Assembly: GCA_020152595.1 (NCBI GenBank)
Contig: JAIGNY010001834.1
Coordinates: 378,501-442,500, forward strand
Reading direction: 5' to 3'
Length of the DNA: 64,000 bases
Origin: Chiridota heheva
Lineage: Eukaryota; Echinodermata; Holothuroidea; Apodida; Chiridotidae
Shown here: one piece after another, positions 1,110 to 62,199 of the stretch
Position numbering within the stretch: position 1 is the stretch's first letter
Layout of the letters: each line of letters opens with the position of its first letter
Program-made: the position numbers and the translations under genes
The notes under the pieces: model-generated
Told to the model about the DNA's origin: nothing
The model's input: the letters and a program-made list of their open reading frames with translations, nothing else
Database searches by the model: none

Positions 1110-3475
1110 AGATCCAAGCGCCGGTGGTACCAGGGGAGACGTAGCGTGCATTGACTGGCAGGTTGCCTGTAACGTGCTGATTCCTCCCGCGCCCTAGTTG
1201 ATCCCCTGCTCCAGGCAAAGCTGGTTCCTAAGGCACTGTATACTTTGAAGGAGGTGATCCACCTCGAAGTCTGTGATCTGCCACCATGACTCCAGGAGTC
1301 GAAGTCACAGCGAAAGCTTCTGGATCTGCCTCATCACAGTAGTAGCCAGGCGAGGTCACTGTCGCTTGCAGGCTAGCGTTCCTTTGCCCGCCGCTCAAGC
1401 GCCTCCTCCCTAGGTCAGGGCGGAGGTAAGCAGAAGTGTTTTTGATGATTTTTGAATCCCCTTTTTGTTAGGAGTCCAGTTGGGGGCGCCTGGGGTTGTT
1501 GCATGCTCAGTGGAAGGATATAACCTCTGACAGATGGGTACTGCACACCATCAGGGAGGGTTACAAGCTGGAGGTCACTTATCCACCCCCACAGGGGGAA
1601 GCTTTGTGTAACCCCTAAACCAAGGGATGCAAAGCAGGCCTTACTGCTGGAACAGGAGATCAACAATCTCTGGCAAAAATGAGCGATCAAGATCTGGTCA
1701 TGTCAACCTTCTTCTTAGCTCTAAAGAAAGGGGCATTTGGCGCCCCATCTTCAATCTATGGCCACCGAACAAGTTTATTCAGCCGGTCAAGTTCAAAATT
1801 GAGACTCTGTGCTCCATTTTGCCACAGCTGCACGAAGGGCTCTGGGCGACGTCGATTGACATTTCAGATGGCTATCTGCATATTCCCATTTACAGGAACT
1901 ACTACAGGTTTCTAGCCTTTCAATACGAGGACAGTTCCATTGTCTTCCAGACGTTACCCTTTGGCTTCTCCATGGCCCCTCGGGTGTTCACGAGGATCAC
2001 ACAGGTCCTGGCAGCCCATCTCCGGAAGCAAGGCAACCGGATATGTACCTGAACAATTGACTGATAGTCGTCGATGATCCAGCGACCGTGTCCGCCCACA
2101 CCCAGCGGGTGATCTTGGTGGCGCAGCGTTTGAGCTGGTTAATCAACCCCCTCAAATCGAACCTAGTTCCCTCTCAAATCGTGACCTTTCTGGGGGCGAC
2201 ATTAGATTTCGGATCAGCTTGACCCAGTAAGGGTGCAAGCTGTCTTGGAAGGAGCGGACTTGCTTTTGGCACAGCCCTTTGCCCCGGCGAGGGCCTGGCT
2301 AGTATTTTTGGGATACCTGGCCAGTGTGGTGGATATTGTTCCCATGTGCAGGTTTCACATGAGGGTTGGGGAGCATACCAAGGTCTGTCCCCAGTGTGGT
2401 GGATATTGTTCCCATGTGCAGGTTTCACATGAGGGTTGGGGAGCATACCAAGGTCTGTCCCAAGTGGCGAGACTATGGTCCAACGAGTGGAGGCTCCAGC
2501 ATATCAACGTGTTGGAACTGGATGTAGTCTTTAGGGCCTTGAAACATTTCCTCTACTGGTCAAGAACAAAGTGGTTCTGGTCAGAACAGACAACACCACA
2601 GTGGTGGCTTACATCAACAAGCAGGGCGGAATCAGGTCCAGACGCCTGTGGTTACTCACCAAGTACCTGCTGGAGTGGTGCCAGTGGCTTCATGTTCCAC
2701 TCCAGGCAATTCACCTGCCGGGCAAAGAGAACACTACAGTGGACTTACTGTCTCACCTCAAGGGAGCTCCCACAGAGTATTGCTCCAGCCACAGATAACC
2801 CAAGCGTTGTGGTCAGTTCTGGGCCTACCGAACGTTTACCTGTTTGCCTCGTTAGACAATCACAAGCTACCAATTTTCTGCGCTCTGCTTCAAACCCTTA
2901 CCCCAGACCATTGGGATCTGGGAAAGCAAGTGAGCACAGTCAAAGGTTTGCCCTCAGCCATGGTGGTAATTCATGAGGGCTTCCCTGACTGCTCTGCCGT
3001 ATCAAAGTTGGAAGCTCTGGAGAAGCCCGTAAAGGGCATGTTTTTGCAATGCCCGGCGGTTCAATATCTTTCACCGCCCTGGAGCATGCAGGTGGTTCTA
3101 GAAACCTTTGCTAAAACCCCTTTTAAGCCACTGGCCCCCTGCCCTTTCAAAGAGCTCACCATTAAAACTTTGTTCCTTATAGCAGTGGCAGCGGCTAGAT
3201 GCCGCAGTGCACTACATGCCCTATCCCTCGCAGAGGGTCATATAAGATTTGAATCTGGAGGGGTCAGGCTAATCCCTGACTCATCTTTCCTGGCCAAGAA
3301 CCAAACCTTAGATTTCTTGCTGGAACCCATTTTTCTTCCTTCTTTAATGTCTCTTATCAGATACTCAAGAAGAGGACAGAGTCTGGTCTCCAGTGCGGTA
3401 TCTCTGATACTACTTGAAGCATACCCAGCCCCTTTGCAAGGATGCCAAGTCGCTAAATTTGTGCTATGGAATTAA
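1110..3475 (+). mobile_element. Decayed DIRS-like retrotransposon (RT, RNase H, tyrosine recombinase fragments)
   Basis: Translated blocks in changing frames follow the DIRS order. About 1500-1670 carries a block ending in DRWVLHTIREGYKLE, which resembles the conserved stretch upstream of DIRS reverse transcriptase. Positions 1680-2050 carry RT motifs (DISDGYLHIPI, then LPFGFSMAPRVFT, the usual DIRS form). Positions 2571-2798 carry an RNase H block with RTDNTTVVAYINKQGG and a later LPGKENTTVDLLSH. Positions 2800-2935 carry the DIRS-type segment with VYLFASLDNHKLP. Positions 3140-3350 resemble the start of a tyrosine recombinase (TIKTLFLIAVAAARCRSALHALSL). Stops and frame changes separate the blocks and the catalytic end of the recombinase is not seen, so this is a dead fragment. 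The split inverted or terminal repeats of an intact DIRS were not identified. Confidence 0.75.
2321..2460. repeat. 70-bp tandem duplication inside the DIRS remnant
   Basis: The segment beginning CCAGTGTGGTGGATATTG at 2321 is repeated almost exactly at 2391. The period is 70 bp, which is not a multiple of three, so the duplication shifts the reading frame of the polymerase region. The near identity of the two copies suggests it is younger than much of the decay around it. Confidence 0.85.
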
Positions 3476-32900: not shown

Positions 32901-35900
32901 ATGTTACTCCATTACATCTTAATTTATTACCCCCTCCCCCTTCCCCCTCCCGTCTCTTTCCCAGATAAAGTAGCAAACTCATTTCAAAGTACTTGTCATT
33001 TTCTATAAAGCTCTTTATAAACAAGCGCACAACAACATTACACATTAAAACTTAGTCCAACATACTTAAAGAGTTGAAAGGTTGCTAGAAGTGACTCAGG
33101 GCCTCAGAGAAAACTTTTCTTGATTTTAAAGATTTATCAAATCCCCTGATTGGTTAATTCATAATAACATGAATATTCATCTTACCCTAAGTCCTATTAA
33201 GAGCCTCACTGATTTAGCTTCTGTAAAATCCAAAAGTCTTATGGACTTGTCGTTTCAGCCGAACCCACTGATTGGTTACTTCATAATGACATGAATATTC
33301 ATCTTACCCTGTGTCCTGTTAACAGCCTCACTTCTGTGATATTCAAAAGTCTTATGGACTTGTCGTTTGAGCCAAACCCACTGATTGCTTAATTCGCAAT
33401 GACATGAATATTCATCTTACCCTGTGTCCTGTTAACAGTCTCGCTAATTTAGCTTCTGTGATATCCAAGTCTTATGGACTTGTCGTTTGAGCCACACCCA
33501 CTGATTGGTTAATTCATAATGACATGAATATTCATCTTACCCTGTGTCCTGTTAACAGCCTCACTGATTTAGCTTCTGTGATATCCCACAGTCTGATGGA
33601 CTTGTCGTTTGATCCTGTGGCTAAATATTTACAGTTAGGATGAAATCGAACACACTGAAAAGAGAAAACAGCAACTTGATCAATTTTTGGATTATCAGTA
33701 TTCATCATCTTATAAGCATACAATCCACACAGCGTTTCAAGGATCCAAAACAAGATGATACCACTCTACTCAGATAGATATCCTTCAATCCGTGTATTTG
33801 TTTATAAGTGTTACTTATTCTTTGTCAAACTTAATTCATCCTGTCTACTCAACTAACTTTGTGTTCTTATAGTGTGAAGTTCCCCCTTAAACAAATATGC
33901 TGCATGATTAAAAAAAAAAATTTACATCAAGAAAATATCAATCTTTTGGTCATTTCTCACTAATTTGCATAATGACTATTACAGTAAACCCTCAACATTA
34001 TAATGCTGCATAATAGCCAACTACAAACTGCTTTTAAAAAAGACTTTCCCTATTTTATTGTTTTATGATAGCTTTTAAAGTAACAGAGCTAATAAGACTA
34101 GATGTCCATAAAACAGTGATACTTTGTGAGTTCCTTTAAAGGAGCACTAGACCGACATGTGAGGGTGCATTTATTTTGGGTCCCCCCAAAATTGAATGCT
34201 TATATAGTATGCAACTGTATGGTAATTTTCTGGTTAATATGAATATTCAAGTCTCCTTTACAATCATGTAGTCTGTGGAATATGGAGGCATGAATTTTAG
34301 CAATCTATTGTGGATAATATATCTATGAAATTCACAAAAACGAATGCCCTTACTTTTCGGTCTAATGATCCTTTAAATCAAACTTACATCAACATCCATG
34401 AGATGACCACAAAGAATTCTCAAAGGAAAGGTTCTTTCCAGGGTCCATAACCGGGCAGTATGGTCCTTAGATGCTGTGGCAAAGAATAGACTAAATGGAC
34501 TCACGTCCAGGTCCCAGATGGGATAATTGTGGCCCTTATAAAGGGCAATATTTGTCCAGGTGAGCTTGCTCCAGGCTCGAACTGAAAGGGGAGAAAACGA
34601 ATTAGAAACAGCGGCAGAATCTTTGATGGGTTTAATTACAGACCTGCCAACCTTTAGAATCACCAAACTGTATTCTGGAACTACATAAGCTGTATTTTTG
34701 ATAAAAAAAACTGTACTCTTCAAAGAAAATGTACAAAACAAAGATTTAGTGGCTGAAAAAAAATTACCACTGTACTTTCAGTTTCTCTTATTGTACGAAT
34801 CTGAATCTGAATCGATTAAGTTAGGAAAATCAATCCTTCAATAGGACACGAACGCCAACCGAGCGTAAAAAGTATAAGTGAAAAAAAATTTAAAAAATAT
34901 ATTAAAATAAATAAATCGTATTTTGGTGCCAAAACACGTACAATCGTATTCTCAACATTTTCTTGTATTAAATACGGTAAAATCGTACTAGTTGGCAGGT
35001 CTGTAATTACAGAAACATTCAGAATACAGAGCATCAATGTGAACCACCACCATCTGCTTGTAGCTAAAAAATACCACTACACTGAGGTTGCTTACCTCGT
35101 GCAGCTGACCGCAACAATCATATTCAGGCAGACATACTTTTATTTACATGTCATACAACCAGTTTTATGGTAAAAATGTGTTACATATTTACAAAGTTCT
35201 TAAAGAACATAATTTTACTCACGGACAACCAGAAATACAGCGGTCATTGCCAAGTGGACAAGTTACCTTCAGGGAGATTGATCAATTTCTGCCTTTAAAG
35301 ACCGCTATTATCCTCCTTTTCAAAAACTTTTTTTTAATTCTAGTTTTTAGGGATCACATAGTTTCAATGTATAGAATATACAATACTATTGCATCTAGCT
35401 ATTACCAGCACAATTACTCAACAACTATGAAAAGGAAGATTTTGAATTCTTTTGTCGCTAGAAGCATCTGATTGTTATATTTATGCAGCTTGGTCAATTA
35501 TCCTCAGAGAAATATCAAATTAACTATTTTTACCTGTTGCGTCTTCTGAGCATGTTAAAAGGACACTTGAATCTGGCACAAAATTACAGCTATACACAGG
35601 CCCCGAGTGACCTCGTAAAGTTCTGCTCTCTGACCCCGATCTGTGAAAAGATGGAAAATCAAAACACTAAAAGAAGAAACTAACAAAAATCATGGTAACC
35701 CCTTGCAATGTCTGATAAAAGTGTCAAAATGAGTTTCTGCCAAGTGCATTATGCAAGTTTCAAATTGTAATTAGCTATTCTGAAATGAGTTTCGATTAGC
35801 TATTATGATTGCATTTGATTAGCAGTTATTGTGATTCAAATTGTGATTAGCTATATGATTAAGTTTAATATTTTCTATTTGTTCTAATTTATCCTATGAA

Positions 35901-41900: not shown

Positions 41901-44900
41901 AATCACAATGCCCGCTGGACCTAGATGATATGAGGCCCAGTACTAATCACAATGCCCGCTGGATCTAGTTTGTTTGTTTGATGAGGTCTTAACGGCACCA
42001 CGACAACGAAGGTCAAATTGTGCCTGAGAGGTCAGATCATTTTAGAGGTAGTAAGGAAAGAGACCAGGGGAAGAATGAGAGAAATTCAAGAACAAAAGCC
42101 AGAAAGCTGTGATCGAGAGAGGAGGTGCATGGGTAAAACAAAAACAAAGTAGAGAGGGGGTGGAAGAGGAGAATTAAATATGGTTGTAGAGGGATGCATG
42201 CTGAAGAAAGGAGACTATTTTATCTGGAGGATTTTTTTGGAAGAACTCAGCAATTGAGTTGTGGGGAGCGAGGGAAGCTCTGGGAAGGTTGTACAGGGGG
42301 CAAGCAAGGAGAACGTGTTGGATTGTGAGGATGCAGTGGCAATTGTTACAGAGGGGTTGGGGGGAACCAATAAGGAGGTGGGAGTGAGTGAGGTGGGTGT
42401 GACCAATTCTAAGACAGGTAATATGAATTTTGTCGATACGAGAAAGGTTGTTGATGGTGGATTTGATCGGGATTGTGGGCTGGATAACATGGAGTTTGTT
42501 ATCAATTTGGAAGTTCCATAAGGTTTGCCAGCGGTCACGAACAAGAGAAGCGATAAGCGGTTTGATGTCAGAGAGGGTTTTGGGAAAAGGGGAAGGGAGG
42601 AGGTTAAGGGCAAGCTTAGCGGCTATATCAGCCCTGTCATTGCCAGGGATGCCAACATGGCTGGATCTAGATGATATGAGGCCCCGCACTAATCACAATG
42701 CCCGCTGGATCTAGATGATATGAGGCCCTGTACTAATCACAATGCCAGCTGGATATAGATGATATAAGGCCCCGTACTAATCACAATGCCCGCTGAATAT
42801 AGATGATATGAGGCCCCGTACTAATCACAATGCCCGCTGGATATAGATGATATGAGGCCCTGTACTAATCACAATGCCCGCTGGATCTAGATGATATGAG
42901 GCCCCGTACTAATCTTAATGCCCACTGGATCTAGATATGAGGCCCCGTACGAATCACAATGCCAGCTGGATCTAGATGATATGAGGCCCCGTACTAATCT
43001 TAATGCCCACTGGATCTAGATATGAGGCCCCGTACTAATCACAATGCCCGCTGGATCTAGATGATATGAGGCCCCGTACTAATCACAATGCCCGCTGGAT
43101 CTAGATGATATGAGGCCCGTACTAATCACAATGCCCGCTGGATCTAGATGATATGAGGCCCCGTACTAATCACAATGCCCGCTGGATCTAGATGATATAA
43201 GGCCCTGTACTAATCACAATGCCCGCTGGATCTAGATGATAGGAGGCCCTGTACTAATCACAATGCCCGCTGGATCCAGATGATATGAGGCCCCGTACTA
43301 ATCACAATACCCTCTGGATCTAGATGATATGAGGCCCTGTACTAATCACAATGCCTGCTGGATCCAGATGATATGAGGCCCTGTACTAATCACAATGCCC
43401 GCTGGATCTAGATGATATGAGGCCCCGTACTAATCACAATGCCCGCTGGATCTAGATGATATGAGGCCCTGTACTAATCACAATGCCCGCTGGATCTAGA
43501 TGATATGAGCCCGGTACTAATCACAATGCCCGCTGGATCTAGATGATATTAGGCCTGTACTAATCACAATGCCCTCTGGATCTAGATGATATGATCACAA
43601 TGCCCGCTGGATCTAGATGAATCACAATGCCTGCTGGATCTAGATGATATGAGGCCCTGTACTAATCACAATGCCCGCTGGATCTAGATGATATGAGGCC
43701 CTGTACTAATCACAATGCCCGCTGGATCTAGATGATATGAGGCCCCGTACTAATCACAATGCCCGCTGGATCTAGATGATATGAGGCCCCGTACTAATCA
43801 CAATGCCCGCTGGATCTAGATGATATGAGGCCCTGTACTAATCACAATGCCCGCTGGATCTAGATGATATGAGGCCCGTACTAATCACAATGCCCGCTGG
43901 ATCTAGATGATATGAGGCCCCGTACTAATCACAATGCCCGCTGGATCTAGATGATATGAGGCCCCGTACTAATCACAATGCCCGCTGGATCTAGATGATA
44001 TGAGGCCCCGTACTAATCACAATGCCCGCTGGATCTAGATGATATTAGGCCTGTACTAATCACAATGCCCTCTGGATCTAGATGATATGAGGCCCCGTAC
44101 TAATCACAATGCCTGCTGGATCTAGATGATATGAGGCCCCATACTAATCACAATGCCCACTGGATCTAGATGATATGAGCCCCGTACTAATCACAATGCC
44201 CGCTGGATCTAGATGATATGAGGCCCCGTACTAATCACAATGCCCGCTGGATCTAGAGGATATAAGTCCCCATACTAATCACAGTGCCCGCTGGATCTAG
44301 ATGATATGAGGCCCCGTACTAATCACAATGCCCGCTGGATCTAGATGATATGAGGCCCGTACTAATCACAATGCCGGCTGGATCTAGATGATATGAGGCC
44401 CCGTACTAATCACAATGCCCGCTGGATCTAGAAGATATAAGTCCCCATACTAATCACAGTGCCCGCTTGATCTAGATGATATAAGGCCCCGTACTAATCA
44501 CAATGCCCGCTGGATCTAGATGATATGAGGCCCCATACTAATCACAATGCCCCCTGGATCTAGATGATATAAGGCCCCGTACTAATCACAGTGCCCGCTG
44601 AATCTAGATGATATGAGGCCCCATACTAATCACAGTGCCCGCTGAATCTAGATGATATGAGGCCCCACACTAATCACAGTGCCCGCTGGATCTAGATGAT
44701 ATGAGGCCCCGTACTAATCACAGTGCCCGATGGATCTAGATGATATGAGGCCCCGTACTTATCACAATGCCCGCTGGATCTAGATGATATGAGGCTCCGT
44801 ACTAATAACAATGCCCGCTGGATCTAGATATGAGGCCCCTAACTAATCACAATGCCCGCTGGATCTAGATGATACGATGCCCCATACTAATCACAATGCC

Positions 44901-47900
44901 CGCTGGATCTAGATGATATAAGGCCCCGTACTAATCACAATGCCCGCTGGATCTAGATGATATGAGGCCCCGTACTAATCACAATGCCGGCTGGATCTAG
45001 ATGATATGAGGCCCCGTACTAATCACAACGCCAAATTACCTGAATGTCATAAGCAAAGGATTAGTGAGGATGTCCACACTGTTCATGACCTCGGTCAGAC
45101 TCTGCAGGAGCTCTCCTTGACCTGAGACCATCTGGAAGACATCTTGGTGCTTCAGGTAGAAATTGTGGGCTTGAAAATGAAAGAAAGATTAAATCAGCAT
45201 GAAGCAAAATGACTTGAAATTAAGAGGTCTAACAGCCCTTTTCAAATCTCAAAATCTTATCGACCAATCAAAATACTGAGGGATTTTTTAACTCTGCACA
45301 ATTCACGCAGGGTATAAAACAAAGAGAATGAAAAAATATCTTTCAAATGCTAATAATATATGCGTTATACATGAAAGGTAATACCAGTGTTCACATTAAG
45401 ATGCGGGATTTCCACCAAAAAATATCAAATCCCCTCTAAAAAAATCAAAAGGGGGAAAAATGCTGCAGAAAAAAGTGAACAAAGAAATTTTCGCAGAACT
45501 ACTTCATATGTTGCGGTAGTTACAGTACAAGTTGAGGCCATGATCATTTAGACCACTTTAAAATATGCAAAAATGTTGTAAAAAGTATAAAAAAATCTAA
45601 TTCAGAATAGTTTTCCTTACCCCATACTGGAAAACTCCGATAAAAGTTGGCAAAAGGAACAATAAAAGAGGCCCAGTACAGGCCTCTCACTTGGCGGTGA
45701 CATCGTTGCTCTGGTTGAAACAAATTGTGCATGTGTCATGAACATGATGAAATATACAACGTAATAGTAATGCACTCTCTTTGGTTTGGTTTGTTGATGT
45801 TTAACGGCACTACGAGTCAAATGTGCAAAGAGGGTGTAAGAAATTTAAGGTGCTAAAGTTAGGGTGAAGATGTATGGGAGAGGGAGAGGGAATAGGAAGG
45901 AATGAAAAAATCCGATGAAAAAGAAAGGTGGCAAAAAGATTTTTTTTAAAAGGAGGAAAAGGATGGTAGGGTAAAAAAGGGGGAGTGTGGGTAACGATTA
46001 GATCAGGCGGAAAGTGTTCTTGAAGAGATCAGAAATGGAGGTGGAGAGGGAAAGGAGTCATCTGGAGTTCAGGTGTAAGGGACAGGCTAAGAGGATATGC
46101 TTGATTGAGAGATCAGTATTGCAAGTGGGGCAGAGAAGTTTAGGAGAGCCTGAAAAGAGGTAGGATTGGGTGAGAAAGGAGTGACCAAGACATATGCGGG
46201 TGATAACAACATCCTCCCTATGATTGCGACTGTGTAAGAGAGGGTTGGTCCCTACTTTGGGATTGATAATGTGAAGTTTATTACTGGTCCCAAGATTCCA
46301 GGAGTTTTGCCAGATCTTCCTGGGTAGCTGAAAATGTTGAGGCAGAAGTCAGAGTGCAAAATAAGGATTGATGAAATGTGGTTCGACAGAGAGTTGTCGG
46401 CCCTCTCGTTTTCAGGGATACCAACGTGGCTGGGGATCAGAAGAAAATGATTTTCTTCCCTGAGGAAGAGAGTGCATAAATTTTGTTTAAGATTTGTAAG
46501 ATCAGTGGATTAGACTAGAGCATGTGAGAATGAGGATGCCTGTAAGAACTGATTTGGAGTCAGAGAAGATGACAAAGTAGGGGTGGAAGAAGAGTTCTGC
46601 GAAGTTTAAAGCTAGGAGGATAGCCTTTGCTTCAGCAGAATAGATGGAGGCTCCATCTGGTAATCTTGAAGAAAGGGTGAGGCCGGGACAGGCGGCGGCT
46701 GCTGCAGAGGAGCCTTAGCGTCTGGAGCCGTCTATCTCGATTAATTATGTTTAAAAAAAATAATAATTCAAAAGTGATCAAATGTCAATTTTTGTGATGT
46801 TTTGTATGACCTTTGACACTTGAATGCATCCAGGATCTACCTACCTTCAGCTTTGTGGCCATTGTAGATCATTTCCAGGAACAGATGAACAAACACAGGA
46901 AATATGAGCTGCTCTAGGTCAACCTGAAAGAGAGACAGGAAAGACACACCTTCAATAAATGCAATATGGGTACACTTTCTTGAAAATCTAGTGGGAATAT
47001 GAACTCCCCACCCCCTCCCACCTCAGAACACATCCCCTTCTAGGTAGATAACATTAACAAGGTCCCTTGGACTCATCTTTTGGATGCTGGAAACACAGCT
47101 TGTTACTTACTGTAGGTGCTAGGAGTATGAAAAGTGGGTGTGACCTATTCTTAGGTAGGTGATGGTGACCCAGTGTTTGTGGTTGCTATGTTCTTAGTAT
47201 TTTCATTTACATTAACAATAATCTCCTTTAAGATGTTTTAATTGGAAACTGCTTTAATTGTGCTGCTTAAAAAAGTTAAAGCCAATAGATTGAAGAAAAA
47301 AATCAATAAGAATAAAGAGTTTGAAAATGTGAGTTTAATATATGTTATTAACTCTTCAGTCTTCTTAGTCATTTAGTAAGGCAAAATGGTGCAAGCATAA
47401 CATTTCTGGGTTTTATTTTCATCCAGCCCTCCCCTATTGTACAGTAACAATGCTTTAACAATATAGGGCCACAACTACATCATAAAGCAGTGTATAAGAG
47501 CCTATAAAACACCATGAATGTACTTAAAAGAAATGATGCAAAAATCAACTAAAAACTGCAAAATAGCAGATATTTTACCATTCCTGGCAAAACATCAATG
47601 TAAATTGTGTAACAATAATACATTTACATAGTGCAAAAATGTGCTAAGCATTCAAAAGCGCTTCACAATAAGATCAAACTAAATAAAGGCAGTACAAAAA
47701 AAGGATGTTTTTAGCTTAGACTTATACAAACTTAGATTGTTAACTAAACTTTATGACATGGCTAAATAGTATTAGGAAGGCAGTTCATTCCAAAGGGCTG
47801 GATCTGCATAATAAAAGCTATGGTCACACTTAGTTTTGGGGACAAAAAGAATGGGAGAATCATTTGAGTGTAATGAATACCTATTGCTATGAACTAAATG

Positions 47901-48070: not shown

Positions 48071-51000
48071 GAAATAGTGTCATCATCAGAGGCCTTTTAG
48101 GCAAGTTTCTTATATAAATGCAGCAGGCTCTATATTCTCTCTCTTCCTCGCAATTTGCGACCCTATGCAAATAATGGATACCTATTACCCTGAATGAGAG
48201 CTTAAGTGTTTCATTCTCAATTTAAAATGTATATCAATATGATATGATCTATTAATACATCAAAATGCAGCACGAGATTATGCAAGATTAAGCTAATGAA
48301 GCAATAGATTTGACAATAATGCAAAGCAGTTTGCATTAGAAGAAAATCAAATTATGAATTTTCAAATTTGAAATAGATGTCCATACTAGGTTGCATAATA
48401 AAGGTTATATGCCCTGGTCATACAACCCACGCTGACAGATCGCCAACCCTTCAAACACTCCAAATGCGACGCAGTGTCTGTGTTGAATTGTTCAAAGGAA
48501 ACTCTTGCGTTAATTTTGAGTCGCTCTTATATGATATGTCTCCCGTCGCTTGCATGACAGTCGGATAAAACCTTAATGACGTGTGCCCTAGCTGTTACAG
48601 TTTCTCATAAAGACTCTAACTCTTGCATTAGTTTCTCTAAGTCTTACCTTGTACTCTTCACAGGCTGACCTAACAAAAACTTCAAAATGGGAGAACTGTG
48701 TTCCTGATTCGTCTGGGTTAGGGTTACTGAAAATATACAGATGATATAAATGATCAATGTGAAGATGTAAGACTAGTTTTTCAAAACTTTAAACTATTAC
48801 AGAAAAACAATGTGCAAAATGTGTTGGATATTTTCCCTGCTTTCAATGTTTTTTATACACAGACCCCTACTTTAATAAGCTGCCCTCTATTCTGCAATCA
48901 TACCCCTTACTAACCCTTACTCTACCAGCACTATTTTGTTTGTTTGTTTGTTTGATGAGGGTTTAACGACACCACAACAGCAAGGGTCAAATTGTGCCTG
49001 AGAGGTTAGATCATTCCAGAGGTAGGAAGAAAAGAAAACAGGGGGAGATTGAGAGAAACATGTGAACTAAAAGCCAGAAACCTGGGATCGAGAGAGGAAG
49101 TGCATGGGTCAAAAAACAAAGTAGAGAGAGGTGGGTGGGAGAGGAGGACTATATAGTTGTAGAGGGAAGCATGCTGAAGGAAGAAGATAATCTATCTCAA
49201 GGATTTTTATGGAAGAGCTTGGCTATTGAGTTGTGAGGAGCGAGGGAAGCTCTGAGAAGGTTGTACAGGGGGCAAGCAAGGAGAATGTGATGGACTGTGA
49301 GGGTGCGATGGCAATTGTTGCAAAGGGATGGGGGAGCCAATAAGGAGGTGGGGGTGAGTGAGGTGTGTGTGACCTATTCTAAGGCGGGTAATGTAAACAT
49401 TGTCCACACAGGAGAGGTTGGGAATGGTGAGTTTGATTGGAATGGTGGGCTGGATGACGTGGAGTTTGTTATCAATTTGTCCCATGAGGTTTGCCAGTGG
49501 TCACAAAAAAAGGAAGTGATAAGCGGTTTGATGTCAGAAAGGGTTTTTGGAAAGGAAGTGGGGGAAGTTGAGGGCAAGCTTAGTGGCTGCATCAGCTCTG
49601 TCATTGCCAGGGATGCCAACATGGCTGGGTATCCAGAAAAAATACTTTTCCTACAGAGGGGAAGGAGGGGGGCGAAAGGAGTTTATGGGCTTAGGAGACG
49701 GGGTCAAAGATGGGCACCCAAAACAGCAATAATATCGCCACATGGTAGAGTAAGGGTTTTGAGCACAGGCTGATTATTGAAAGGTCCTTCTGTCTCCCAA
49801 GCAGCAGAGTCAAGCTCGTTCCACTTCAGTGACCAAGTGTGCCACCCACTGGGACCATGCTGCATATATATATTTTTTTTGAAAATGCACTTGGGTGGGG
49901 TCAAAGGTGGGGCACCCAAAACGGAGATATTATTGCCGCGTGGTAGAGTAAGGGTTAAATCCACCCTGCATCTTTTTCAAAAATCTTCTATATATTGTAC
50001 ACAAAACAATGCAGTTTCCTGAAATGCAAGAAGGCAGGTATATTCATTATATGTTGTATTGATTTCTCTCTTATTTACATTTGGAGTGCCCCAGTGACCT
50101 TCTTGCATGCCCCTTGATACCATGTAAGTGTCCTTTATGGTCACTGGCACCCTGTCCCTTCTGGATCAATCTAGGGATTGACACATGCTGTACTATTATT
50201 AAACCCCCATGAGGTGTCAAAAATCTTCCCACAAAAATCGTGACAGAAATAATGTTGATGTAGTAAATATATCTTTATATGCTTACCTTTATCACCCACA
50301 TTTCCACTTCCACAATTTAATTTACTACTCATTGCACAATAACATGAGGAGAAATCCATGAACCCAAAAAATGTGGAAGAAACTTTAACTTTTTCCACAC
50401 ATACTGTTGCTTACTCAAAGAAAATGTAACAAAAAAGTATTTTTCTATGAAAAAAATATTCCTGTCTTTCCTGCATTTATGACCTCTGAACCTTGGCATT
50501 TTCCAGGTTTGGATATCAGTACCTGCTATCACACAACACAGCATACTTAGCTCCTGCCGCCCTACCTGCTGTCACATGACAGCAGTCTTAGCTTCTGCCG
50601 CCCTACCTGCTATCACATGAAACAGCATTCTTAGCTCCTGCCTCCCTACCTGCTATCACATGACATAGCATTCTTAGCTCCTGCCGCCCTACCTGCTATC
50701 ACACAACACAACATTCTCAGCTCCTGCTGCCCTATCTACTATCACATGACATAGCAGTCTTAACTCCTGCCTCCCTACCTGCTATCACATTAAACACAGC
50801 ATTCTTAGCTCCTGCCTCCCTAGCTGCTATCACATAACAGCATTCTTAGCTCCTACCCCCTACCTGCAATCACATGACAGCATTCTTAGCTCCTGCCTCC
50901 CTACCTGCTATCACACAACACAGCATTCTTAGCTCCTGCCTCCCTACCTGCTATCACATAACAGCATTCTTAGCTCCTGCCTCCTACCTGCTATCACATA

Positions 51001-54000
51001 ACAACATTCTTAGCTCCTGCCTCCCTACTTGCTATTAAATAACAGCATTCTTAGCTCCTGCTCCCCTACCTGCTATCACATGACACAGCGTTCTTAGCTC
51101 CTGCCTCCCTGTGCAGCATTGCCCTGAATGCCAACTGCTCCAAAGATTCTGTTAATTGGAAATTCTTTTTGCTGAAGTTTTCAGTTGAGTCAGGCTAGAG
51201 AAGAAAGAACAAATCAAATAGTAATCAGTTTGAAATCCAACTACTGTACAGCTAAACAAAAAAGGACAATGCTGCATGCACTTCTGAAAACCTGACCTAA
51301 AGCCATAGTACAGTATAGTGTACTTGCAGTAAAAATTTGCTTTATCGCCAAAGATAGAAATAAGTCTGGTAAAATCTTAGCATACTCTAGCAGTTCTTAC
51401 AATTTTACCCAAATTTGGTTCTTGTATTACAAATTTATTCCGTTAAAAATAGCTGGAAATTTAATGAGCTTACAATTTTGTTTTATTAGCCAAAATTGAA
51501 AATGTTCTTGTTAAACTTTTGTGTTAAAAATGAAACTCAAGTCCTAAAATAAAAAGAATAATTAAAGGTAATAAACTCAAAATACATACTTAACTCATAG
51601 TTCTACCAGTATTCACCACAACCTTTTTCTTCAAATAGAGTTTGTTTGTAAGCTTTAGAATTCTCTACCAAGTGTTGTTCTGAATACTGGCAGCTTAAAC
51701 AGTTTCAAAAACAGACTAGACAAGCAATGGTGTAAGCAACCGTATTACCTTCATTACTGATACTACACAAGTCAGCTTTTTAATGACATTTCAATATCTG
51801 GCCCTTCAGGCGTTTAACGCCTTTCATCCAGTATGCATCATAGGTATCATAGGTTAAACTTAATTACCAATACAACGCAAGTCAGCTTTTAAGCAACATT
51901 TCTAGATCTGGACCATCAGGCATTTTAACGCCTTTCATCCAGTATGCATCATAGGTATCATAGGTTAACTTACTTCATTACCAATACGACGCAAGTCAGC
52001 TTTTAAGCAACATTTCCAGATCTGGACCTTCAAGCTTTTAACGCCTTTCATCAGTATTCATCATAGGTATCATAGGTTAACTTACTTCATTAAACCCTAA
52101 ATAGCAATTTACCACTTGAAAGTAGATCAAATTTCCCCAATTTTGCACCTAAGGAGGAAAGTTTTTGCATATTTCTGGCAGGGAATGGATTGTAAGGAAT
52201 TTATCTTGAAATTTTTAAGGGTCAGGGTTGGAAGACTTTTTGAAAGAATAACAAATCACCAAAATGACAGGTTTTTTCTATGCAGCGTAACACTAGTGAC
52301 CACAATGGTTGCCATTTCAAGTGTGGGCTTTAGGTATTTGGTGTACATAAGTTACATAAAAGTACATGTAACAAGATAACAGACTAAGTTACCATAAAGA
52401 AGGGTCAGTCACCCCATAAAATGCCCAAAATAGCACCATCATCACAAAAGAAAAACACAGGAAACATTTTAGAGTTAAAAAAACAATCAGTGATTTTTTT
52501 ATTTTTAATGTAATTTATTCTATTGATGATATTTTTTATCTACAGTACTGTTCCATCTCAGTTGAAAATTGCATCAGGCCAAAATGCATTTGTTTTTACA
52601 ACTGGAAAAAAGTAAGTCAGAAATGAGTCCCAAAATGCATCTCCCATCAGATTTGCATTCCCTTCAATACTCCTTTAATATTTCAACTCCCAACCCAGTC
52701 CGCCCCTGGCCTGCTGACGTATTTGCAAGCTGAACTATTATTCCAGAAAATCCACAAAGAAAACATAATTAACTTACTCTATTTTGCCGATTTTATTCTG
52801 AATATATAGTAATCCAAAACACATCTTAAATCAAGGTTGAATCCATCAAAAATATTGAAAATAAGTAGGAACACCCTATAATACACTCTGAAATATAAAG
52901 TTAACAAGATAAACTAGTTACACAAAGGTTGTAATGAAATAAGTCAGATCGGCAACTTTCTGAATTCACTTGTATTCTTGTAAACTTTGTTCCCACAGTC
53001 CACGGTCTTATTACGCCAAACCAGAGGCCAACATGTTGGGCATAGGACTCTTGGCGGGGGGGGGCCTTTGCTTGTGGGGGTCCTTGGTTGTGGAATTTAC
53101 TCCCGACTGAACTCAGATGTATTGATGGTGTATCCCTGACCTCCTTCAAAACTGGGCTTGAAACTTTTAAGGGGACATTAATCTAATGTGCAGCTTGATC
53201 CATTGTATTTCTGTTTATGTTGTCATTTCATGTTCTTGTTTTTGTTTTCGTGTCTGGTTTCCTTGTATGTAAAGCGCTTTTAAATGTTTTTACAAAATTA
53301 GCATATATAAATTTATGTATTATTATTATTATTATTATTATTAACAGTACTTACAGTTACTATACCTTCATCAGCTTCACTCCCCAAATTTCAAGGTCGC
53401 CATTTTTAAGCATGTGTTAAATTCCATTGACCCAGACTGCATAGTTTACAAAGTGTGAGCGGAAGTTCATTTTGAATCAAAAATTAGAGCAGAAGACTAT
53501 GCAATCTGGCCATTGACTTTTGCTTCAGCACACATCTTTAATTTTCAATGGAAGATTTCCTAGACCTAAAATCAGCAAAGTTTATGCAGTGAAGCTGATG
53601 AAGGTCTAGTTATAGCTAAGCGATAATAATGGCTAAACATTCACAGCACTGGATGAAATGGGTACCGGTGATTTCCACCCCAACTTCTCCATCCCCTTCC
53701 GCCCCACAATGTTGATGGCAGAAAATACCATTTAAAAACTGACCTTTTTTTTTACTTATTTGAAACAAACAAACAGGCTTTAATTCTTTTTAAGTAGCTA
53801 CAGCACATTGATGACTACTGCAAAGTGAAAATGTTGAAAATCAATTGGGCATTTGTTTATTCACATTCAAAGGGTATAAATGTTTGTGGAAATTATTGAG
53901 TGGGTCGCCAGTGCACCACAACTGGTTATTAAAGGCCGTGGACATTGACTTGGTTGTCGATGTTATGTCTGTCCATACGTCGTACCTGTGTTCTCGTTCG

Positions 54001-55201: not shown

Positions 55202-58018
<2,817 letters not shown>

Positions 58019-61200: not shown

Positions 61201-61640
61201 ATCATCATATTATCCATCTAATGATTTGTTTATACTTTTGCTTTTTCGGAAATAAGTTTAGATGGTGTTCTACCATTTCTATCATAATCAACAACATCTG
61301 ATGTCCGTAGACGGAATAGTAAAAGCAGCTTTGACAATGTAGTTTTATCCATCGTGAGTTGTTGGATCTCGTTTGATAGATTCCTATGTCTTTGGCAATG
61401 ATGTCGGGATAAAACATCCTTCTACTACAATTTGGGTGTCCACCAGAAGGTTCTCAGAACATCGAATAAGAAATCGATTGATCGTTTGTTAGTAAGCAGG
61501 GTCTAGCAAATTGTTAACGTTGCCATTTTAAATTCTCTGATAAAGGAAACTGTACAGACTGTGCTATAAACATTTATTCTTTCTTTACCCATTTTTCTTA
61601 TGATCTATATTTGATTGGAAAACTATTCTGTTTTGTTATA
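58232..61640. other. Gene-free stretch upstream of the receptor gene
   Basis: No exon recognised. A diverged arm of the TTAA family is present at about 59745-59965. The region should contain the promoter and 5' UTR of the receptor gene, but I could not identify them. A polypyrimidine stretch followed by CTGTAG at 61641-61646 could be a splice acceptor for an upstream non-coding exon. Confidence 0.4.
59745..59965 (-). mobile_element. Diverged arm of the TTAA inverted-repeat family
   Basis: Contains AATGTCACAGCTAGTCTGATTTCA, ACTTTAAACTTGAATACC, GTAACGGAATAAGAT and TTCTTTCTT in family order. Confidence 0.6.
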
Positions 61641-61665
61641 CTGTAGAGTTTTACATCCATGCACG

Positions 61666-62025
61666 ATGAATCCTCAATTTCCTGTCATGCAATGCGGTAA
61701 AAGAAAGGGAATTTACTCTCGCCTGTCCGTTTTACTTTTCTTATTTCATATGCACCACTATGAGTTTAGTGCAGCACTGGATACGACTTTGTCGCCTATA
61801 AATAACACCACTTCTGTATTTTCCGAGGATGGTTCCGAAATATCTACAACAGAATCAGTTGAAACAAAGAAATTACCCATTTATCTTGGTGGGTTTTTCT
61901 CCTTCGGTGGTATTTGGGATGGCAGTGGAATTCTTGTTGCTGTTGAACTTGCACTAGAACAAGTGAACAACAGAACCGATATGTTGTATGGTTACGAGCT
62001 ACGGTTAGTGCCTGGAAATTCTAAG
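61666..62025 (+). CDS. GABA-B-receptor-like class C GPCR, first coding exon
   Basis: 120 codons from the first true ATG in frame to donor GTAAAA. An open frame extends to 61615 only through a TTG. The N terminus (MNPQFPVMQCGKRKGIYSRL then SVLLFLFHM) looks like a signal peptide with a basic n-region. A Ser/Thr-rich, N-glycosylation-prone stretch (NNTTSVF) follows. Then comes LPIYLGGFFSFGGIWDGSG and VAVELALEQVNNRTDML and YELRLVPGNSK, the first lobe of the Venus-flytrap domain as in GABBR1 (positions corresponding to IYIGALFPMSGGW and AVEMALEDVNSRRDIL). The receptor family couples extracellular ligand binding to G proteins at the plasma membrane. No sushi domains are encoded. Whether it is a true GABBR1, GABBR2 or a lineage-specific orphan cannot be decided from this part. 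Confidence 0.9.
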
Positions 62026-62199
62026 GTAAAACACTGTTTTATTTACATGGCTTATATAAATGGGGGCTACATGTAGCCTCAGGCCGCTTCCCATTAACTG
62101 ATTAACGGACCAGGATGTTTATTCCTTCTGTCGAATGTTTACTCTATCAAAAACATTACAACAAATAATTAGGCTAATATTTTTCGTACATCTGCCGGG

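Follow-up and report, generated by a model that had tools for sequence, protein, structure and literature searches.

A minisatellite repeating the exon 2 splice donor of TAF5L in the holothuroid Chiridota heheva, and similar arrays at other exon ends

Introduction

A minisatellite with multiple splice donors was reportedly described in human IFI6 by Turri et al. in 1995. In this gene (also 6-16 or G1P3), splicing also uses the donors of two downstream repeat units, and three mRNA species result (PMC4526556). In lancelets, mirage minisatellites occur in Adh3, the globin genes BflGb6 and BflGb9, troponin C, and PGBD5, and genes with such arrays reportedly give regular mRNA with undisturbed splicing (PMC3087553, PMC3902484); all published work is cited here from parts of the articles concerned. 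We analyzed 64,000 nucleotides (nt) of Chiridota heheva DNA (contig JAIGNY010001834.1, positions 378,501 to 442,500), hereafter the window, in which the end of coding exon 2 of TAF5L, read on the minus strand, forms the first unit of a minisatellite that repeats the 5' splice site (donor) of the exon. We assign a probability of roughly 0.78 to the reading that this array is a 5' splice-site mirage minisatellite whose first donor is used nearly always, with leakage prone to nonsense-mediated decay (NMD), and that it is, for the most part, a neutral by-product of a genome with many minisatellites.

The TAF5L gene and its exon 2 array

The gene model comprises 14 coding exons joined at GT-AG sites, running from 55201 to 29791 on the minus strand, with an open frame of 594 amino acids. 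The best PDB match of the full-length protein is human TAF5L (7ktr_B, E 1.3e-152), collinear from query residues 1-589 to chain residues 1-581, and Pfam reports TFIID_NTD2 and WD40; by this similarity, the gene is TAF5L. PDB and Pfam gave no match for exons 2 and 3 searched alone, whereas the full-length protein did match. In the assembly search, the TAF5L exons were found at a single locus; other places gave weaker WD40 matches, and one of these is probably TAF5.

Coding exon 2 (51070..51194, minus strand, 125 nt) has the acceptor TTCTTTCTTCTCTAG and the donor CAG|GTAGGG, and the acceptor of coding exon 3 (48648..48726, minus strand) is shared by all exon 2 donors. The stretch covering exons 2 and 3 aligns with human TAF5L without a gap across the junction, so exon 2 ends where an initial annotation of this DNA had placed it; the other exon end that the annotation had allowed for did not emerge from homology. 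Its assignment of the exon to TAF5L, with the exon ending inside an array, is likewise borne out by the 14-exon model and this junction.

Tandem Repeats Finder (TRF) places the minisatellite at 50520..51110 (minus-strand reading; period 43 base pairs (bp), 14.0 copies, score 786). The initial annotation had recognized the array, but its lower limit was 20 nt short. The 14 units are spaced 40-45 nt apart, the first being exonic, as it is the end of exon 2, and the repeat unit consists of the final ~40 nt of exon 2 plus GTA, in agreement with the earlier reading of the unit as the exon end plus its donor. With the exonic unit counted, CAGGTA is kept in 11 of the 14 units and CAGGTAGG in 10. Variants occur at unit 2 (CAAGTAGGG), at unit 7 (CAGCTAGGG), and at unit 9 (TAGATAGGG); the donor in the final unit is CAG|GTACTG (50517..50525, minus strand). 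Among the 13 intronic units, ten hold a CAG|GTA decoy, including the weaker terminal site, one holds a weak CAA|GTAGGG, and two have lost the GT. The annotation was right that most units keep CAG|GTAGG, but the roughly 13 decoys that it expected proved too many.

The exonic unit is among those nearest to all the others, with a mean identity of 0.87 versus 0.84 among the rest, as expected for a source under coding constraint. A two-unit DNA query against the 1.1-gigabase (Gb) genome returned at least seven matches, every one inside the exon 2 array; the counts from genome DNA searches are lower bounds. Since tandem arrays are often mis-assembled, and one lancelet mirage was apparently wrongly assembled in a draft genome (PMC3087553), we considered an assembly artefact. 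However, pairwise comparison showed that all 14 units differ from one another, the locus lies inside a contig of 1.15 megabases (Mb), and the flanking exons are intact; we hold an artefact to be extremely improbable.

At the internal junctions of the array, GTA runs directly into the next unit, which mostly begins with GGGAGG or GGGCGG, whereas the intron after the final unit opens with GTACTG. From this geometry, the terminal site is probably the intron start that preceded the duplication. About 40 bases of exon 2 together with GTA would have been duplicated in tandem, and the array would then have grown to 14 units. The first unit would have stayed the coding exon end while the other units turned intronic, and the original intron start, GTACTG, would have been left behind the final copy. 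The internal junctions would have become CAG|GTAGGG, a sequence with better U1 pairing, so that the present donor would be stronger than its predecessor.

Donor strength and expected splicing

The true exon 2 donor (51064..51072, minus strand) has a calculated U1 duplex energy of -11.2 kcal/mol, the lowest among the gene's 13 donors, the other 12 ranging from -4.9 to -11.0 kcal/mol. Nine of the 13 intronic units reach -10.7 to -11.2 kcal/mol, at most 0.5 kcal/mol from the true donor, which is a measure of calculated strength and not of use; the terminal CAG|GTACTG reaches -7.1 kcal/mol. Past the true donor, the frame continues as AGG TAG and meets the stop codon at 51066..51068 (minus strand); the premature stop that the annotation had foreseen for any later donor is confirmed by this reading of the frame. 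The motif TAGGG occurs 12 times in the 551 nt of the array versus once in the remaining 1793 nt of intron 2. The UAGGG of each unit resembles what we take to be an hnRNP A1 site, and hnRNP A1 favours intron-distal donors.

Because introns 1 and 2 measure 3938 and 2343 nt in the exon model and the exon itself only 125 nt, exon 2 is probably recognized by exon definition. The first donor is the closest to the exon 2 acceptor and is predicted to be no weaker than any other; under exon definition, it would therefore be used nearly always. Leakage to a later donor would add 41-547 nt and an immediate in-frame stop, making the transcript a likely NMD substrate. Under exon definition, Carranza and colleagues found exclusive use of the upstream donor in five minigenes that each carried two strong donors of identical sequence (PMC9225289). 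Taken together with the lancelet mRNA reports and the IFI6 donors, these minigenes lead us to expect that splicing of TAF5L exon 2 almost always takes the first donor, leaving a small share of NMD-prone transcripts. The initial annotation had offered two options, a strong choice of the 5'-most donor and a tuning of TAF5L output by array copy number; the minigenes make the former the better of the two, here as a prediction.

Several points weigh against this expectation. Among human alternative 5' splice-site events, preference goes to the downstream site in ~60% overall and in the majority of cases in all four intron classes; exon-defined exons show an upstream preference only after events with near-equal strengths have been selected (PMC9225289). 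RNA accessibility gave no order favouring the first donor, the probability of being unpaired, P(unpaired), being 0.021 for the true donor versus 0.001-0.13 for the others. The use of the downstream donors in IFI6 also indicates that leakage is possible (PMC4526556).

If the decoys were used to a measurable extent, the number of units could tune TAF5L output through transcripts bound for NMD. The near-equal calculated strength of most intronic units, the TAG that every later donor brings into frame, and the two downstream donors employed by IFI6 (PMC4526556) are consistent with such tuning. However, the donor columns of the array are as variable as the other columns (P=0.45; 14 units, low power), so that the decoys appear neither clearly conserved nor purged; comparable arrays occur at the exon ends of unrelated genes, as detailed below; and the minigenes with identical strong donors used the upstream site only (PMC9225289). 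The tuning proposed in the annotation is thus unsupported, and we judge it quite unlikely.

Further arrays in TAF5L

The end of coding exon 11 (33541..33654, minus strand; WD40), whose donor is AGG|GTAAGA, is the start of a second array, which was absent from the initial annotation. TRF reports it at 33138..33612 (minus strand) as 120 bp x 4, and the donor is intact in all four copies. The unit combines the last ~72 nt of exon 11, the donor, and ~48 nt of intron, and the frame beyond the donor reads GTA AGA TGA. In the probable paralogue TAF5 (L105, so labelled from its WD40 similarity), the corresponding stretch stops at the residue at which exon 11 ends, GHK, and the next matching stretch begins there. 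A third array, of a 44-bp unit in ~54 copies (42660..45032, minus strand; two adjoining TRF rows merged), starts 8 nt beyond the exon 5 donor, which is not part of the repeat.

TRF arrays occupy 16% of the window, and in the TAF5L introns their share is 21%. With such shares, arrays starting in exon ends are to be expected now and then. Among the seven larger TAF5L arrays, which were chosen by hand from the TRF rows with the short ones excluded, three start between -75 and +10 of a donor, which hints at more than chance in this gene. A random-placement test of these arrays was dropped: at least two of the seven spanned a donor in 69% of random placements, as long arrays overlap donors easily. 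The test being uninformative, left-edge densities around exon ends were used in its place.

Upstream of the gene, some 560 bp before the TAF5L start codon, lies a (TA)n array of about 276 units (55762-56312 of the window).

Exon-end arrays in the genome

We surveyed 78 hit ends, comprising 68 listed myosin-head matches, a list that is a lower bound as 65 of 169 candidates were scored, and ten kinesin windows (10 of the 120 listed kinesin matches were read). TAF5L, in which 2 of 13 donors are repeated, was kept outside the 78 as the discovery gene. Thirty kinase loci (L040-L069) and four kinase stretches (L106-L109) also stand outside this set, the kinase loci because many of them are long single open frames whose hit ends do not mark exon ends. 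The denominator of the survey is hit ends and not proven donors. A donor-like site near the hit end matched at least five of nine positions in 66 of the 78, at least six in 54, and at least seven in 40, and the frame stayed open for 150 nt past the hit end in four.

In three of the 78 hit ends, an array starts in the exon and repeats its donor. The first is a myosin array of 30 bp x 45 (L021, 1699-3050), in which GT is kept in 19 of 45 units under a loose pattern; the second belongs to myosin VI (L076, 60-368; 58 bp x 5.3), and the third to a kinesin (L117, 52-125; 18 bp x 4). In a further kinesin (L119), the array begins at about +6 nt beyond the donor, and the donor is not repeated. As hit ends are not always exon ends, the affected share of true donors may be somewhat above 3/78. 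The survey suggests that a few per cent of exon ends carry an array that includes the donor. We would put it slightly below even odds that donor-repeating exon-end arrays are a standing feature of the whole genome, involving a few per cent of donors and possibly thousands of introns, and that they survive as often as arrays starting just inside the intron.

Other repeats were seen near the matches. A kinase stretch outside the 78 (L108, 1-337) presents the mirror case, as an array of 96 bp x 3.5 repeats the acceptor CACAG|GGAT. Two other kinase loci carry a two-copy duplication of 310 bp (L066) and a short two-copy repeat (L058). Small arrays lie within 60 nt of the match, without overlapping it, in three myosin loci (L022, L028, and L037); in L037, a 45-bp unit in 1.9 copies stands directly upstream of the match.

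The distribution of array starts bears on the alternative that minisatellites in this genome preferentially begin to grow at splice donors or transcribed exon ends. Array left edges numbered 0.61 per kilobase (kb) between -75 and +10 of the hit end, 0.71 between +11 and 100, and 0.51 between +101 and 200, and then 0.29 and 0.39; the underlying counts are 4, 5, 4, 2, and 2, the first four including L119, and the kinesin hit ends were placed at one approximate position. The density at hit ends matches that of the adjoining intron, which argues against preferred seeding. The triple spaced word CAGGTAAGT also argues against it, being rarer genome-wide than the reversed word (152 versus 363 matches, which are matches and not arrays); the places listed by this pattern search come mostly from a few long arrays. 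Inside exons, arrays are almost absent, covering 45 of the 13,746 nt in myosin hits.

In favour of seeding, two of the larger TAF5L arrays have their start within an exon end and a third starts 8 nt downstream of a donor, and the kinesin array of L119 starts about 6 nt past one. Within 400 nt of the 68 myosin exon matches, array coverage is near 10% on the donor side (+80 to +300) and roughly 4% on the acceptor side, a roughly twofold difference that comes from few arrays. This higher donor-side coverage and the three of seven TAF5L arrays are hints toward preferential seeding, and the TAF5L arrays also count against a largely neutral by-product. In these small numbers, there is no sign of either preferred seeding or purging at exon ends, and we consider preferred seeding unlikely.

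Other features of the window

Fragments with an HVGIP motif, which we take to be RNase H-like remnants of non-LTR (non-long terminal repeat) retroelements, lie in the TAF5L introns at ~49.6k, ~46.3k, and 42174-42692 (minus strand). The open frames at 1612-3475 (plus strand) resemble a retroelement reverse transcriptase. An open frame at 61615-62076 (plus strand) resembles what we assume to be the start of a GABA-B type receptor, and Pfam returned no match for it.

Discussion

Rows of near-identical donors with differing unit numbers are a natural setting in which to test spliceosomal choice among equal 5' splice sites. Should the frequency of 3/78 hold, the choice of the 5'-most donor could be tested over many genes at once in a single animal, and the result would bear on whether mirages, discussed so far for lancelets, are common in another minisatellite-rich genome. 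If donor-repeating arrays were indeed a standing feature of the whole genome, it would amount to a large experiment of nature in which rows of near-identical donors are silenced by exon definition alone.

The exon 2 array, judged on its sequence, has the structural features of a mirage minisatellite. Its units hold exon sequence, a splice site, and part of the intron (~40 nt plus GTA), as do those of exon 11 (~72 plus ~48 nt). One end copy serves as the authentic boundary, and the gene is intact, its 594-residue frame being collinear with human TAF5L. Like the lancelet mirages, the arrays are short tandem repeats across an exon/intron boundary that repeat splice signals in several genes of one genome; unlike them, they lie in other genes, and they are known here from sequence, whereas splicing and length instability were examined in lancelets (PMC3087553, PMC3902484, in the parts cited). 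Searches for COX1, for a mollusc-type haemocyanin domain, and for the GFP family all came back empty, the latter two having been run without a positive control; the GFP result speaks at most weakly against a lancelet.

The likeness to IFI6 is a minisatellite at an exon end that supplies several splice donors, several of those in TAF5L being strong enough by predicted U1 pairing. The difference lies in what follows: the IFI6 type is marked by alternative use that gives in-frame protein forms, whereas a downstream donor in the exon 2 array would lead to an immediate stop through AGG TAG. The internal tandem repeats of human segmental duplications are also minisatellites that alter exon/intron limits; unlike the donor row of TAF5L, the cases given in the cited parts of that report are recent paralogues with exon or intron elongation or new introns (PMC2812944). 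The kind of structure is already known from the lancelet mirages and IFI6. To these, the TAF5L arrays add a further member, the presence of two such arrays in one gene, and an apparent frequency that is the interesting part of the finding.

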